A DNA stretch of 64,000 nt from Tunturiibacter gelidiferens (GTDB lineage: Bacteria; Acidobacteriota; Terriglobia; Terriglobales; Acidobacteriaceae), in contig NZ_JACCCV010000001.1 in the NCBI RefSeq assembly GCF_013410115.1, positions 2,356,001-2,420,000 on the forward strand, read 5' to 3'. Shown here piece after piece: positions 20,737 to 26,558 of this stretch; positions within the stretch are counted from its first letter, which is position 1; every line of letters begins with the position of its first letter. The notes below the pieces were generated by a model. The model saw only the letters and a list, made by a program, of their open reading frames with translations, was not told the origin of the DNA and did no database searches. A program made the position numbers and the translations under genes.

Positions 20737-20852
20737 ATGAGGCTGTGAAATTTGCGAGACACCGGAACCTTTGCGAAAAAGGAGCGTCTGTACCGGTAGA
20801 TTGACCACCGGAGAAACTCTTCCGGAAAATGCAGTATGAGAGTGAGAATCCG

Positions 20853-21320
20853 ATGACGACGTTATTTCGCAAACCAGTATTGCAAGCAGCTCTTCTGGCG
20901 CTATGTACCACGGCGCTCAGTGCACTTCCCGCGATGGCACAAGACCCTTCTCCGCCGCCAACGCAGGATCAGGCAGGCCCGCCTAACGGCGGCCACCGGA
21001 ATCCTGGTCAAAGGGAGGAGCATCAGATTGAATTCCTGACTAAGAAGCTTAATCTGACGCCAGACCAAGTGACCCAGGTGAAGGCGATTGATGACGCTTC
21101 ACGAACTCAGATGATGGCTTTGCATCAGGACACGACTACTCCTCAGGCTGACAAGCGGGCGAAGATGATGGACATCCACAAAGCATCGCAGGACAAGATA
21201 CGGGCCGTCTTGACCGACGATCAGAAGACGAAGTACGACGCTTTGCAGGCCCAGATGAGAGAGCGCAGAGAGAGCCGTGAGAGTGGGCAGGGAGCACCGC
21301 CTCCTCCTCCACCGCAATAA
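20853..21320 (+). CDS. periplasmic LTXXQ/Spy-like protein
   Basis: 155 aa from MTTLFRKPVLQ (an ATG at 20829 would add eight residues). Sec signal peptide with cleavage near AMAQ. The mature part has a Pro/Gly-rich start, then a long helix with NLTPDQVTQVKAIDDASRTQM and VLTDDQKTKYDALQAQMRERRE, two LTxxQ-type repeats as in the Spy/CpxP superfamily of periplasmic chaperone-like proteins. The tail ends in a run of prolines. Likely an envelope-stress or metal-related protein; the role here is inferred from family only. Confidence 0.78.
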   Translation: MTTLFRKPVLQAALLALCTTALSALPAMAQDPSPPPTQDQAGPPNGGHRNPGQREEHQIEFLTKKLNLTPDQVTQVKAIDDASRTQMMALHQDTTTPQADKRAKMMDIHKASQDKIRAVLTDDQKTKYDALQAQMRERRESRESGQGAPPPPPPQ

Positions 21321-21517
21321 TGTGTTGTCCGCCGACGATGGAGATGGGGCCGGAGAGATTCACATCCTCCGGCCTTCTTGCGTCGGTAAGTACTCCTTCG
21401 GGCAGCGGTGCGGTTACAATGAAAAACAGTGATTACGGCGTCCTATAACTTTTGAAACGCGTTGCCTGCGGGACAGCGTAGGAAGTTATGGGCGAATTCG
21501 AAGGGATCCAGCGAAGA

Positions 21518-22123
21518 ATGAAGAAAACGATGTTGTTGTTTGGCGCGCTGATGTTATCTGCGGCAGCCGGTTATGCGCAGGAGAGCCGGCAGGACGTGAG
21601 CGTAAGCGCCAGCGCTGCGTTTGCCCCACAGATTACCGGAAACAGCGTGCAGAAAAACACAAGCACGACTATGGGACTGGTTGCCAGCTACCGCTATTTG
21701 TTGACGCCTCGGAGCGGACTCGAAGTTAACTACGGATATCAACAAAACACGCAGTATTATCAGGTCTTCGGGAAGGCTAACGGCGGAATACATACGCTCC
21801 AGCAGGAGGTCAGCGCTGCCTATGTGTTCAACCTGAACTTCAAAAACTTTAATCCGTTCCTTGAAGCCGGTCCGGGTGTAATGTTCTTCTCGCCCTTCAA
21901 GGATGCGGGATCGACGAACCTTGACGCAAAGCGGAATACGAACATCGGAGCGCTCTTTGGCGGCGGTGTGGCCTATGAGCTGAGCCCGAGCTTCGACATC
22001 CGCGCGGAGTACAGGGCATTCCTGGTAAAGACTCCGACTTTTAGCCTTCCAGGCAATATCTTCAATACCAATCGTTATGAGATCATCTCGACTCCTTCGA
22101 TCGGCATTGCATATCACTTCTAA
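21518..22123 (+). CDS. outer-membrane beta-barrel protein
   Basis: 201 aa from MKKTMLLFGALMLSAAAGYAQ, a clear signal peptide (an in-frame ATG at 21488 is upstream of it). Alternating hydrophobic strands, NTSTTMGLVASYRYLLTPRSGLEVNYGYQ and AAYVFNLNFKNFNPFLEAGPGVMFF, and the terminal aromatic residue (IGIAYHF) mark an eight-stranded OmpA-like/outer-membrane barrel of the size common in Acidobacteriota. Substrate unknown. Followed by a strong bidirectional hairpin terminator. Confidence 0.85.
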   Translation: MKKTMLLFGALMLSAAAGYAQESRQDVSVSASAAFAPQITGNSVQKNTSTTMGLVASYRYLLTPRSGLEVNYGYQQNTQYYQVFGKANGGIHTLQQEVSAAYVFNLNFKNFNPFLEAGPGVMFFSPFKDAGSTNLDAKRNTNIGALFGGGVAYELSPSFDIRAEYRAFLVKTPTFSLPGNIFNTNRYEIISTPSIGIAYHF

Positions 22124-22207: not shown

Positions 22208-22735
22208 CTACCGGAAGTGATAGGCTGCGCCCACCGTAAGGATGTTGGGGGTAAGACTGGATCCCTGGAAGCCAAACCATTCCTGGTATTCCCAGTCGGC
22301 GCGAACGTAGAGGTAAGGTTTCACTTTGTAATCGGTACCAATACCAGCCGCTATAAGGTTATAGGCGAGGTTCGCCCGAAATCCATCGGGGTTGACAGGG
22401 AAGTTGAAAACGCCGCGTCCATAGAGGATCTTGCCGTAGGGAACGAACCGGTGATATTCGCGAAAATAGCGTCCGCCTACCTCGTATGTCTTCTCATAGA
22501 GATCGTTCTGATCCTTGACGAAATGAAACTCCCCCGTTATTCCGATGTGGGGGAGAAAGTCGAAGTCGAAGTATGCTGCGCCACCATTAAATCTATTTCC
22601 GTAGTCGGAGTCAGCTGTGGAGAAGCCGCCGCCGATCTTGAGATCCCCTGCGCGAGTCGCCGTAGGAGTGGCCTGCGCGCTTAGTGTGGATGCGGCCCCC
22701 AGCAGGCCCAGAAAAACAACAACCTTTGTCAGCAC
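22208..22735 (-). CDS. outer-membrane beta-barrel protein, paralogue 1
   Basis: 175 aa. GTG start at 22735 with AGGAG five nt upstream; signal peptide LTKVVVFLGLLGAASTLSAQ. The mature barrel opens PTATRAGDLKIGGGFS, has HIGITGEFHFVKDQ, VGGRYF..RFVPYGKILYGRGVFNF and closes with VGAAYHFR, ending in an Arg after the aromatic. It is homologous to the next gene upstream (same motif order: P-T-A-S/T-R, G-G-G, H-L/I-G-V/I-.-G-.-F-H, F-.-P-Y-.-K-.-L-.-G), so the pair arose by tandem duplication. Confidence 0.82.
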   Translation of the reverse strand: MLTKVVVFLGLLGAASTLSAQATPTATRAGDLKIGGGFSTADSDYGNRFNGGAAYFDFDFLPHIGITGEFHFVKDQNDLYEKTYEVGGRYFREYHRFVPYGKILYGRGVFNFPVNPDGFRANLAYNLIAAGIGTDYKVKPYLYVRADWEYQEWFGFQGSSLTPNILTVGAAYHFR

Positions 22736-22837
22736 GTGCACTCCTGTCGAACAGAATATTCCTCATCGCAGGCTTGACAGCGCAACGACAGGACATTGCG
22801 GTGAAGCAACATCTTCATCATGAGACATATTCGTTGA

Positions 22838-23380
22838 CTAACGCAAGGTATAAGCAACACCTATTGTGTAGGCGATAGGGGAAAGGCCATTCGGAGCGAA
22901 GCCTGGCCACTTCTGAAACTCAACGTCGAAGGCCCGGACGTTGATGTGTCGCGTTGCGCGTATATCCAGTCCGCCGCCAGGTGCAAATTGGAAATATGTG
23001 TAGGATGTCGGCACTGGGAAGCTACCGGACTGGAATCCGAAGCGACCAATACCGAACAGCACTTTGGCGTAGGGCTCAAAGCGCTTATGGTGCCATTTGT
23101 AACGTGGTCCTAGAAGGTAAGAGTTTTCGCTGAGGTCGGCCGGCGTGATGACGGAGTAGTGGAAGTCCCCCTCGACTCCGAGGTGCTGGCCAATATCGTA
23201 ATTGCCGTAGATGGAGATACCCTTCATATAGTGCTGCGTATAGTCGGGGCTGATGAAGGTTGCTCCGCCACCGATCTGGATTGCGCCGGTGCGAGAGGCG
23301 GTCGGGACAGCTTGCGCATGCGACCGGTAAGTCAGACTAAGGACGCAGACGAAACAGCCGATAAGAATATGCCGCTTCAA
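22838..23380 (-). CDS. outer-membrane beta-barrel protein, paralogue 2
   Basis: 180 aa, TTG start at 23380 with GGAGG at 8-nt spacing. Signal peptide ILIGCFVCVLSLTYRSHAQA. Mature part starts VPTASRTGAIQIGGGATF, then HLGVEGDFHYSVITP, RYKWHHKRFEPYAKVLFGIG and a final IGVAYTLR, parallel to paralogue 1. No ligand evident. Confidence 0.82.
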   Translation of the reverse strand: MKRHILIGCFVCVLSLTYRSHAQAVPTASRTGAIQIGGGATFISPDYTQHYMKGISIYGNYDIGQHLGVEGDFHYSVITPADLSENSYLLGPRYKWHHKRFEPYAKVLFGIGRFGFQSGSFPVPTSYTYFQFAPGGGLDIRATRHINVRAFDVEFQKWPGFAPNGLSPIAYTIGVAYTLR

Positions 23381-23494: not shown

Positions 23495-25369
23495 TTAGTT
23501 TTGTTGTGCGTTGGTCGGTGGGGGAGTGGCAGCCGGTGCTGCTGCGGCTGGTGCTGCTGTGTTGTCGGCAGGCGCAGCGGTCGCCGGTTGCGTGGCGGCT
23601 GGAGCGGCTGCAGGTTCTGCGGGGGCCTTGTAGTAGCTAAGTTTCAAATAAACCGGTTCAACTTCAAAGGGCATCTTGTCGGCTGCTGTGAGTAAAGGCT
23701 CGAAGGCCGAGTGCAGGACAAATACCTGGTCGGTCCACGGGTCGAAGCGGAGGAAGCTGGCCAATGGCATGGCTGCCTGTTGCTTCAGGTCCTTCATGTC
23801 CAGCTTGGGGCCCTTTGTGGTGATGGCCTGCATCCAGAATGTCGGATCTGTGTCGCTCTTGACGAGACCGTCACCAATCATCGGCTCATTGAGTGCCTTC
23901 AAATTCTTAACTCGCTGCTGCAGTTGCTGGAGGTAAAGGCTGAAGTACTGCTGTCCGCCTTCCAACTCTTTCGCGTTGAGCAATTCCATAGCTTTTTTAG
24001 CTGCTGCCGCGTTGTCGGCGTCGGTGTGGTGCATGGGGATGCGGTTGAAGACCGTTGTAGAGGGAAAGAGCAGACGGTCGTTGAAGGCGTACTTGGTGTC
24101 GAGACGGTGAGCAAGAATGATGTGTGCAATCTGGAAAGCCAGGATCGCGTTGAGGTTGCCCATCTGCTGTGCGCCGTCCTGAGTGACAACACCCGTCGTA
24201 TCCAGCAAGCTCTTCGAGATAACGATGGTATTGCCGATTGCGAGGGACTCCAGCGGTTCGGTCAGCAGTGTGCGGCAGCGTATCGGTCTTGAGAGTGTGA
24301 TGTTGTTGTACGCCAGAATGTTGCCAGCGAGCGCTTCAAGAGTTTTGTCGAACTCGCTTGGTGCATCGAGCAAGCCTGCCTGGAAGAGGCGCTCAACGAT
24401 GTTGTCCTCTGCCTGCTGGACCCATGCACGCTGAGCTCCGAGAGGGCTGACGTCCTGTGCATCGTTGCTGACGTCGGTTGCTCCGACGACGTCCATCGAG
24501 GTGTTTTCGCTCTCGGGTGGAGGAACCTTCAGCACATAGCCCCAGATGTGGTTAATGGCTTTGAACTTGAGAGTGCGGGAGACGCTCTTCGGATCGCTCT
24601 CTTCAACGTAAAAGGAGGTGGGGAGCCAGAGATCGGGCTGGACGTTGGTCCGCCAGCTGTCAAAGTGATAGAACTCCTTCTGATCCTCCTGGGTTCCTGC
24701 GAAGTCGCCGTTGAAGCGAACAACGTTTCCGCTTCGCGCCTCGATCCAGATGCGTCCGAAGAAGCGACCAAACGATTTCTTGCCTTCAATCGGCGTCACG
24801 TCAAAGACCGCCGTGGGAGTGTTGCCGAGGAAGTCGTTGCGTACGTAGCCGAAGGTATAGTGCTGACGATCGAAGCTGTTGGAGTCCATCAGCAGCATCT
24901 GTACAAAGCCGGACTCGTGGAAGTTCAGGTGCAGGCTGTTGCCGAGGCCACCGACGAAAGAGACGGAGTGCTTGAAGAAGCCAAGCTTCCCATCGTTGCT
25001 GGTGCCCTTTGAGGTCTCTTTGTTCACCGCATAAGAGTTGTCGCCGATGACGCTTTTGAAGTCGACGCGGCTGAGGAAGTGTTCATCAGATTCGGGAACC
25101 TGACCCAGAAGGGGATCGGGCTTCATCGTCTGGATGTAAGTCTCCACGAGAGGAGCCCGCTCTTTGACCGTTTTGACGATCACCTTTTCACGGGCAATCG
25201 CCTTATCGATCAGCGCGTTCTGCGCAGCGGTAGGCTTTCGCGTTGTGGAGAGGTCCTCATCCATCTTCTTCTTTTTGCCAGGATGTAGGATGCCTGCTCC
25301 AGCGGGGAGAGTGGTTGCGACTAGAAGTGCCAGCAGCAGACCGGCGGTAGACTGTTTCCCGAGAATCAT
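23495..25369 (-). CDS. secreted M48-peptidase-like protein with a destroyed zinc motif
   Basis: 624 aa with a signal peptide (LLLALLVATTLPAGAG). Residues ~130-280 form a beta-rich domain (LHLNFHESGFVQMLLM, FDVTPIEGKKSFGRFFGRIWIE, NVVRFNG, YHFDSWRTNVQPDLWLPT) reminiscent of LolA/MucB-like lipoprotein-binding folds. Residues ~320-470 follow the M48 peptidase plan: ESLAIGNTIVISKSLLDT corresponds to the N-A-F-.-.-P-.-G-.-I strand and ILAFQIAHIILAH to the -HE-.-.-H- helix, but here His and Glu are Phe412 and Gln413, and the third ligand region reads HHTDADN. The C-terminus is a Pro/Ala/Thr tail. I therefore call it a non-catalytic M48 homologue. It lies 91 bp downstream of tonB. Confidence 0.75.
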   Translation of the reverse strand: MILGKQSTAGLLLALLVATTLPAGAGILHPGKKKKMDEDLSTTRKPTAAQNALIDKAIAREKVIVKTVKERAPLVETYIQTMKPDPLLGQVPESDEHFLSRVDFKSVIGDNSYAVNKETSKGTSNDGKLGFFKHSVSFVGGLGNSLHLNFHESGFVQMLLMDSNSFDRQHYTFGYVRNDFLGNTPTAVFDVTPIEGKKSFGRFFGRIWIEARSGNVVRFNGDFAGTQEDQKEFYHFDSWRTNVQPDLWLPTSFYVEESDPKSVSRTLKFKAINHIWGYVLKVPPPESENTSMDVVGATDVSNDAQDVSPLGAQRAWVQQAEDNIVERLFQAGLLDAPSEFDKTLEALAGNILAYNNITLSRPIRCRTLLTEPLESLAIGNTIVISKSLLDTTGVVTQDGAQQMGNLNAILAFQIAHIILAHRLDTKYAFNDRLLFPSTTVFNRIPMHHTDADNAAAAKKAMELLNAKELEGGQQYFSLYLQQLQQRVKNLKALNEPMIGDGLVKSDTDPTFWMQAITTKGPKLDMKDLKQQAAMPLASFLRFDPWTDQVFVLHSAFEPLLTAADKMPFEVEPVYLKLSYYKAPAEPAAAPAATQPATAAPADNTAAPAAAAPAATPPPTNAQQN

Positions 25370-25460: not shown

Positions 25461-26558
25461 TTATCCAGCGAGCTGGAAAGCTACATTGACAACACCTTCC
25501 CAATCGATCGGGTGACCCGATGCGTCGGTGGCAGGTTGAAAGCGAGTGGCCTGTACGGCGTGGATGGCAGAGTCGCCAAGGCCGTGGCCGAGATCGCTGG
25601 TGACGCCCAGAACCTGGACAGCACCAGAAGAAGAGACGCGGAGCCTAACGGAGACGACGCCTTCGATATGAAGGCTGCGCGCCTCAGCGGTGTACTCTGG
25701 CTTGGGTTTGAAGAGAACCTTGGGTGCAGTCTTAGCTGTTGGGGCAGTTGGGCCGCCGGGCTTGGGCATCGGTGGAGGAGTGTTTTGGCCGAGGTTGACG
25801 ACACCGGCTGAGCGGCCTGGAGCATTCATCGGTCCGGTGCCACCAGTGACTCCAAGCTTGACGCCAACAACGCCAGCCGAGGCGTTATCTCTGCCGTGCA
25901 TGTTCTGACTGCCGGCTGAACCGGAACCAAGATTGACAACGGTTGATTGTGCTCCCATGCCGTTATTTGAAGCCGGCATGCCGGACATTCCCTTGTTGCC
26001 AAGGTTGATAGCAGTGGTCGAAGGACGATTCGAGGGTGCTATGGGGTTGGTCTGCGAACCAAGTGCAACAGCAGTTGGATGAGGAGAGTTGTTGATCAAC
26101 GCAGCGGGCTGGGCCTGGGCGAGGCTGACGACCTTAGGAGCCGGCGGAGGCTGAACCAGCTTAGGAGGCGCGGGAAGAACGACCGGCATTGGCTGCGCCA
26201 TCTTAATCTCAGGTGGCTTCGGAACGTCGGGCAACTTCACATCGGGCAGCTTGATTTTTGGTGGCTCGACCTTGACTACCGGCGTAGGCGGGAGTTTTGG
26301 CGGCTTGATCTTGATCGGCGGCGGCTCATCGGGCTTCTTCATCGGAATCGGCTCGGTCAACTCGGTGAGCTTGTGACGCGTGTCGATCGTCTTCTTCGCG
26401 GCGGCGCCGATGATGATAGCGCACAGCGCGAGGATGACGTTGAGAGCAATGGAAGTGAAGAGCGAGGACTTGCTCTGGTTGCCGTCGTTCAGGACGCCGA
26501 AGTGTGCGAACTGCATATTCTGCGGTGTGGGATCATCACTGCGAAGCGGCTTTGCCAT
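25461..26558 (-). CDS. TonB family energy-transducing protein
   Basis: 365 aa. One N-terminal membrane helix (SLFTSIALNVILALCAIIIGAAAK, residues ~32-55), then a long Pro/Lys-rich periplasmic spacer (KPPKLPPTPVVKVEPPKIKLP) and a Gly/Asn/Ser-rich region, ending in a TonB C-terminal domain: KPKPEYTAEARSLHIEGVVSVRLRVSSSGAV...HAVQATRFQPATDASGHPI. It would couple the proton motive force to TonB-dependent receptors such as the two at 45-59 kb. ExbB/ExbD genes are not in this window. ATG at 26558 with AAGGA upstream. Confidence 0.9.
   Translation of the reverse strand: MAKPLRSDDPTPQNMQFAHFGVLNDGNQSKSSLFTSIALNVILALCAIIIGAAAKKTIDTRHKLTELTEPIPMKKPDEPPPIKIKPPKLPPTPVVKVEPPKIKLPDVKLPDVPKPPEIKMAQPMPVVLPAPPKLVQPPPAPKVVSLAQAQPAALINNSPHPTAVALGSQTNPIAPSNRPSTTAINLGNKGMSGMPASNNGMGAQSTVVNLGSGSAGSQNMHGRDNASAGVVGVKLGVTGGTGPMNAPGRSAGVVNLGQNTPPPMPKPGGPTAPTAKTAPKVLFKPKPEYTAEARSLHIEGVVSVRLRVSSSGAVQVLGVTSDLGHGLGDSAIHAVQATRFQPATDASGHPIDWEGVVNVAFQLAG

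Follow-up and report, generated by a model that had tools for sequence, protein, structure and literature searches.

We describe a secreted protein of Acidobacteriota in which a LolA-like domain precedes an M48-like peptidase domain that has lost its zinc ligands. The zinc-less ("dead") form has a single origin and is under purifying selection, its gene stands in a fixed partnership with a tonB gene, and a barrel gene is kept downstream in the dead lineage. The new element is this TonB gene partnership, common to cutting-competent and dead forms, together with the barrel kept with the dead form. We propose, with a probability that we put at about 0.55, that the protein is a non-proteolytic, TonB-linked, two-domain envelope factor that would bind rather than cut outer-membrane clients. 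The gene lies in a 64,000-nucleotide stretch of the Tunturiibacter gelidiferens genome (the window), which an earlier sequence-only reading had annotated; its features are listed in Table 1.

Table 1. Features of the locus, in positions of the window.
Feature	Position	Strand	Basis or remark
Secreted LolA-like + M48-like pseudo-peptidase, 624 aa (main object)	23495..25369	-	ORF reading
Sec-type signal peptide, N-terminal, about residues 1-25	25295..25369	-	read by eye
LolA-like domain, residues 45-290	24500..25237	-	AF2, VIA-align, hhalign
M48-like peptidase domain, about residues 312-540, zinc site lost	23750..24436	-	VIA-align
Stretch TEPLESLAIGNTIVISKSLLD, residues 370-390: likely edge strand and following strand	24200..24262	-	predicted strands
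FQIAH replacing HExxH, residues 412-416	24122..24136	-	codons read
Stretch past the motif helix, residues 422-436	24062..24106	-	entropy comparison
N453 replacing the third zinc ligand Glu	24011..24013	-	alignment
M497 replacing the plug His (BepA H246 equivalent)	23879..23881	-	alignment
Partner tonB, 365 aa, distinct TonB subfamily	25461..26558	-	directly upstream
OMP3, outer-membrane beta-barrel gene, downstream	22838..23380	-	OMP_b-brl 44 bits
OMP2, second barrel-like gene downstream	22208..22741	-	no own Pfam match
Third of the earlier reading's "barrels"	21488-22123	other strand	

Layout of the protein

The reading frame is unbroken over its whole length. The lipobox pattern is absent from the window protein and from all 51 relatives in the dead-clade alignment (A1). 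About 85 residues follow the M48 half, the final 44 of low complexity; a Pfam search with the window protein gave no TPR match at E ≤ 1, and the M48 half itself is C-terminal. Promoter and terminator signals at the locus were no more frequent than in shuffled sequences.

The protein has matches at E ≤ 0.001 in 136 of 150 genomes of its family, and in 122 genomes the match reaches about 1e-52 or better. In a separate contig search with the window protein, which reaches close relatives only, the named relatives were Edaphobacter, Granulicella, Terriglobus and Bryocella, among others. The idea that the window's own genome carries a second, active member of the family was considered and rejected, since a single place matches there at E ≤ 0.001.

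The C-terminal half has a predicted M48 fold

The sequence-only reading had claimed that the M48 layout is kept, and structure prediction, profile comparison and the weak Pfam M48 matches of clade members all bear this out. An AlphaFold2 model built from 52 rows is of moderate confidence (pLDDT 66.8, pTM 0.46), with the motif-helix blocks at 89 and 95. A structural match to M48, one of the checks that had been proposed, was found: in VIA-align the model's best match is BepA (6ait_B, Z 14.0, 192 aligned, rmsd 3.6), followed by 3c37 (Z 12.3), and Foldseek alone places BepA at E 1.4e-3.

Searched by itself, the window protein hits no Pfam family at E ≤ 1, and neither do residues 30-585; a PDB sequence search with it returned no meaningful match; its two NCBIfam matches (E 0.08 and 0.18) are both ABC transporter ATPases. 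The case for M48 draws on its intact sisters and on further proteins of the dead clade. With scores of 30.0-39.4 bits, each of the 11 HExxH sisters scanned passes the 20.3-bit cut-off of PF01435. Six of the 10 dead-type members scanned match this family at E ≤ 0.1 (16.7-23.2 bits) and four, including the window protein, do not; L019 (FELAH) is the sole one of the 10 above the cut-off.

The suggested HMM-HMM comparison with M48 succeeded in part. A mixed alignment (A2) of 26 rows, 10 of them dead-type, in which 22 of 26 members match PF01435 at E ≤ 0.1, aligned in hhalign with four M48 proteins of the same genome at 94.7% (E 6.2e-8). The dead-clade profile A1 alone reached a probability of 0.1% against the same four proteins (E 0.41), and the one alignment returned for A1 against M48 sets FQIAH on HETAH. 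The best PDB sequence match of A2 is 3c37, a weak one (E 0.16). This Geobacter M48 family peptidase (Q74D82) shares the compact M48 domain; it is named a putative Zn-dependent peptidase, whereas the window protein lacks the ligands and has a second domain.

The window's genome has other M48-type genes with HExxH, at five places above the M48 cut-off, one of them M56-like. In that genome, one 459-aa frame (L114, G000:C2:1929923-1930696) matches both the M48 model (24.7 bits) and TonB_C; it is a peptidase-TonB fusion, which we take to be reminiscent of BlaR1-type M56 proteins.

Loss of the zinc ligands, residue by residue

Reading of the codons confirmed the claim that the motif helix holds FQIAH in place of HExxH, and the third-ligand region indeed lacks Glu, residue 453 being Asn. 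The possibility, named beforehand, that a corrected alignment might restore the motif did not materialize: it is intact in none of the alignments made, and no row of the clade has HExxH. Close relatives have F412 in 87 of 87 rows and H416 in 86 of 87 (rows not de-duplicated).

Residue counts were made over 121 non-redundant rows, comprising 55 with HExxH, 53 of the dead type (defined by [F/M/L][Q/E] at the motif start) and 13 others. Position 412 is His in all 55 intact rows versus Phe (45), Met (5) or Leu (3) in the dead ones. The catalytic Glu at 413, present in 55/55 intact rows, is Gln in 42 dead rows and Glu in 11, while His416 (55/55 intact) is retained in 49 dead rows and replaced by Gln in four. 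At 453, the third ligand, Glu stands in 53 of 55 intact rows versus Asn (43) or Asp (10) in the 53 dead rows. Position 497, identified as the plug by alignment and by hand-counted spacing on L096, is His in 44/55 intact rows; the seven commonest residues of the dead rows (Arg 18, Met 12, Gln 10, Lys 6, Leu 3, Val 2, Glu 1) account for 52 of 53 rows, and His is not among them. The intact sisters that keep this plug His do not keep the HP of HPx4R. According to PMC7950410, the zinc ligands of BepA are H136, H140, E201 and H246; three of these four positions (H136, E201 and H246) are replaced here by F412, N453 and M497. The spacing from third ligand to plug is 44 in L096 versus 45 in BepA, as numbered in that paper.

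The surroundings of the lost site are conserved. E374, G379, T381 and D390 do not vary in any of the 55 intact or 53 dead rows, and conservation extends over the whole stretch 370-390 in either group (mean entropy 0.60 for the intact rows, 0.71 for the dead). The structure model predicts strands at 374-378 and 381-385 within it, the former being the likely edge strand, a role set by alignment to M48 and not from a solved structure. Position 376 in this strand is Phe in 51/55 intact rows versus 1/53 dead rows, 52/53 of which have Leu, Thr, Val, Ile or Met. Conservation of the motif helix (406-421) is somewhat lower in the dead group than in the intact one (0.92 versus 0.65 bits). Together with the change at 376, this indicates that the groove is kept as a strand and not residue by residue. 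Beyond the helix the order is reversed, with a mean entropy at 422-436 of 0.52 bits in the dead group versus 1.44 in the intact. From the ligand losses and the conserved surroundings we conclude that the zinc site was dismantled as a unit within a framework that is still constrained.

The gain of constraint after the motif helix also fits a different reading, that H421, H448, D424 and, in most rows, H416 form a new metal or catalytic site and the protein is still an enzyme. Conservation in the dead clade is consistent with this (H421, H448, T425 and D500 in 53/53 rows, D424 in 52/53). Yet H416 is Gln in 4/53 rows, and H421, D424 and H448 are common in the intact relatives too (47, 32 and 28 of 55) and may be structural, so we regard a rebuilt site as very unlikely.

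The two groups also differ at residue 186 (window 24812-24814; Thr in 51/53 dead versus Cys in 43/55 intact rows), residue 512 (Trp 53/53 versus Arg 50/55) and residue 386 (Lys 52/53 versus Arg 54/55).

A single origin of the dead form, kept under selection

Sampling of 266 loci gave 245 family frames, 218 of them distinct: 120 of the [F/M/L/Y][Q/E] type, 78 with HExxH, 19 with other losses (including RELAH, RGLAA, HGLAA, HELAT, HELAR, HALAR and DELSH) and one (L086) cut before the motif. After removal of rows under 380 residues and of rows sharing more than 78% identity with one already retained, 121 remained, and an unrooted quick IQ-TREE tree (LG+G4) was computed with the motif and third-ligand columns blanked. 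In this tree, in which one row (L244) is long and several have an unusual composition, all 53 dead-type rows form one side of a single branch (SH-aLRT 100). Over the whole tree the intact and lost states need nine changes, seven of them forced by starred branches. The proposed survey of relatives for an intact HExxH thus yielded both intact sisters and a dead type confined to one clade.

Five further families of the phylum (f2, f25, f27, f29 and f57) also contain HExxH rows, and HExxH defines M48 in general, according to PMC7950410; for these reasons the loss is taken as the derived state. Among the loci read, the dead type is found in 79 genomes of 24 genera, all of family f1, and the HExxH form in 68 genomes of 45 genera and six families. 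Among these loci the two forms never share a genome or a genus, some second copies lying outside the set. HExxH copies can, by contrast, be present alongside other losses in one genome (G051, G151, G156).

Several loci deserve separate mention. Genomes of family f2 (L129-L139, L151-L156, L258-L261) carry the further losses RGLAA, HGLAA, HELAT, HELAR and HALAR, and among the copies read G154 has three and G156 five. At G072:C1:1142997-1144636 a family gene is split over three frames, either a broken copy or an assembly error. L060 and L087, close relatives in MAG records titled Rhodanobacteraceae and Verrucomicrobia, have the usual family gene order, and their contigs are probably mis-binned.

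In 14 pairwise comparisons, dN/dS was 0.012-0.059 for the M48 half (residues 305-510) and 0.072-0.180 for the LolA half; many dS values exceed 1 and approach saturation, which makes the ratios rough, yet every one of them is well under 1. Of the two halves, the dead M48 half is under the tighter constraint. Monophyly of the motif-loss state and purifying selection together exclude chance. Judged from these sequences, the putative pseudo-peptidase is real, old and selected.

A decaying gene, or an artefact of sequencing or alignment, was also considered; the long frames, the one clade spanning 24 genera and the dN/dS values refute it.

A fixed TonB gene partner

The TonB encoded directly upstream has a TonB C-terminal domain (PF03544, 46.7 bits, cut-off 24.6). 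Counted over de-duplicated loci with at least 700 bases upstream, a tonB gene stands directly upstream of 109/112 dead forms, 23/26 intact forms and 9/12 other motif losses. These figures are hand-corrected from script values of 108, 21 and 9, the script having missed the tonB genes of L046, L329 and L330 through overlapping frames. The dead loci without tonB upstream (L076, L318 and L321) are all second copies in their genomes. The intact loci without it (L130, L133 and L138) belong to f2 and offer 747-1227 bases upstream, so that the gene may fall just outside. Second copies with no tonB upstream were observed at L317 (G017), L318 (G193) and L321 (G062); of these, L317 shows complete loss of the motif (NELAQ).

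A profile of 30 partner TonBs (A4), which have an FGLLPE-like start and a Gly-rich middle, was applied at E ≤ 1e-30 and found the partner in 122/150 family genomes, a set identical to the genomes with the protein at 1e-52 or better. Both genes are present in 122/150 and both absent in 28/150, presence being counted per genome with fragmented genomes included; the joint loss of two adjoining genes can be one deletion. Fourteen of the 28 genomes without the pair have weak protein matches (9.8e-8 or worse) and 14 have none. The window's genome holds 15 TonB_C places, 13 of them above the cut-off, and one passes the partner profile. We conclude that the neighbouring tonB is a fixed gene partner and not an incidental one, for dead and intact forms alike.

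A downstream barrel kept in the dead lineage

The sequence-only reading placed the gene next to tonB and three outer-membrane barrels. The tonB gene and two co-directional downstream genes stand, but the third lies on the other strand. OMP2 matches many of the same places as OMP3. An OMP2/OMP3-type gene lies downstream on the same strand at 106/111 dead loci versus 1/27 intact and 0/12 other loci, as counted with profiles built from the dead lineage, which may miss barrels near intact genes. The only intact locus with a profile barrel is L310, where it is 827 bp away; the dead loci without one are L051, L076, L318, L320 and L321. At L058, L067 and L084 outer neighbours such as leuA, lysR and DUF421 are rearranged and the order tonB-protein-barrel is unchanged. 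Since the dead clade is one branch, the gain of the barrel counts as one event, long kept.

Ten next frames at nine intact loci were scanned with Pfam, and no common downstream partner of the intact proteins was seen among them. The sole barrel was that of L310, at 22.4 bits below the cut-off of 28.7. The other families were a methyltransferase, VTT, a sulfatase, TetR, MacB/FtsX, a sub-threshold cupin and an outer-membrane efflux protein, and two of the 10 frames had no Pfam family. The next frame of L326 (intact) is barrel-like by eye with no Pfam match, and at L312 (intact) a barrel matches on the opposite strand.

Further along the window, at 20829-21320, lies a gene for a secreted LTXXQ protein (Spy/CpxP-type by its Pfam name); such a gene occurs at 35/59 related loci, many of which are truncated at contig ends.

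The LolA-like front half

The claim of a LolA/MucB-like domain in front is supported by the LolA-type fold of the model and by profile comparison. Folded alone, the front half reached a pLDDT of 68.3 and a pTM of 0.67. Its VIA-align matches are 3bk5 (Z 8.8), LolB 8cm1 (Z 8.8), 3buu (Z 8.5) and DUF1329 4z48 (Z 8.1), versus about 4.5-6.3 for RseB, MucB and classical LolA entries; these values are near what unrelated models reach, and LolA-superfamily entries nonetheless fill the top of the list. Foldseek gave 6.6e-4 for 4z48 and 9.9e-4 for 3buu. Against nine stand-alone LolA-like proteins of Acidobacteriota, hhalign returned 96.8% (E 2.5e-10, 89 columns). Five of these nine scan at 19.8-23.6 bits with PF17131 (LolA_like), below its cut-off of 30; sister L093 reaches 13.8 bits and the window protein has no match to this family. 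Matches to the front half only are present in many genomes of the phylum. On the model, the front half would adopt a LolA-type half-barrel fold, shared with the LolA/LolB superfamily (3buu, 3bk5, 8cm1) and, unlike there, fused to an M48 fold.

Two other functions come into view with this fold. One is an RseB/MucB-like sensor, in which the LolA-like half would sense misfolded barrels or lipid and the dead M48 half would pass a signal to a regulator by way of TonB. The fold matches include RseB and MucB (Z 5.6-6.3), level with classical LolA, and the protein is secreted and gene-linked to an inner-membrane protein. However, LolB and LolA-superfamily entries score above RseB/MucB (best Z 7.7-8.8), the 14 window neighbours traced include no anti-sigma factor, and the LysR gene, though a common neighbour, is not adjacent; we consider such a sensor unlikely.

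The other is a TonB-linked carrier of lipids, lipoproteins or other hydrophobic cargo to the outer membrane, with the M48 half a mere scaffold. The LolA/LolB/LprG-type fold, the hhalign match to secreted LolA-like proteins of Acidobacteriota and the TonB partner of both dead and intact forms are all in keeping with a carrier. It is nevertheless doubtful, because a mere scaffold would not be predicted to be more constrained than the LolA half, as the M48 half is.

Proposed function

The comparison that informs our preferred reading, a binding and non-cutting envelope factor, is with BepA (YfgC), an E. coli M48 metalloprotease with a TPR domain. The likeness lies in the predicted M48 fold, in the motif helix aligned with M48 by profile comparison, in the third-ligand and plug positions assigned by alignment and spacing, and in a periplasmic location (here by signal peptide) within an outer-membrane context. 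Unlike BepA, the window protein has neither HExxH, the third Glu nor the plug His, carries a LolA-like domain in front where BepA has a TPR behind, and is paired with a tonB gene. The HExxH sisters in Acidobacteriota have both domains and the TonB partner; they differ in their intact zinc motif and in the rarity of the downstream barrel, as seen with a profile from the dead lineage.

According to PMC8423444, the BepA edge strand contacts LptD and is needed for both chaperone-like function and cutting, the strand itself mattering more than single residues. By analogy with this precedent, retention of the strand suggests that outer-membrane clients are bound through extended stretches, and the TonB partner suggests coupling to the inner membrane. 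We envisage an M48 fold without the catalytic zinc site, presumably devoid of metal and activity, in which the strand beside the old active site would clamp an immature outer-membrane protein by one of its extended strands. Lipid, a lipoprotein or a hydrophobic peptide may be held by the LolA-like half. The dedicated upstream TonB, possibly by direct contact, would couple binding to the inner membrane, and the small downstream barrel would be the likely client or anchor in the dead lineage. Against a role in binding only, PMC8423444 and PMC7950410 describe the protease-dead E137Q form of BepA as only partly functional and dominant negative.

The interpretation given by the sequence-only reading therefore holds for the pseudo-peptidase, the M48 fold and the LolA-type domain in front; the envelope assembly or quality-control role that it raised could apply, on the basis of the fold, the kept edge-strand stretch and the gene neighbours. 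More tentatively, and with the odds against it, the whole family might be a TonB-driven machine of Acidobacteriota, its M48 fold a force-coupled clamp for outer-membrane proteins or lipoproteins. Cutting would then be optional, lost in one large barrel-keeping lineage and several times elsewhere, with the TonB partnership persisting.

Searches of the open-licence literature, judged by titles and the starts of abstracts, brought up no account of an M48-LolA protein, of a pseudo-peptidase in M48 or of an M48/TonB pairing in Acidobacteria, which is weak evidence of absence.

TonB is known mainly for its outer-membrane receptors, and our reading, if true, would add a periplasmic partner to it. In M48 proteins of the BepA kind, chaperone-like and proteolytic functions are intertwined and difficult to tease apart. 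In this family, evolution seems to have separated them: of two sister forms that share a gene partner, one is competent to cut, judged by sequence, and the other is not. If so, the family would provide a natural experiment on the role of the M48 groove when proteolysis is absent.
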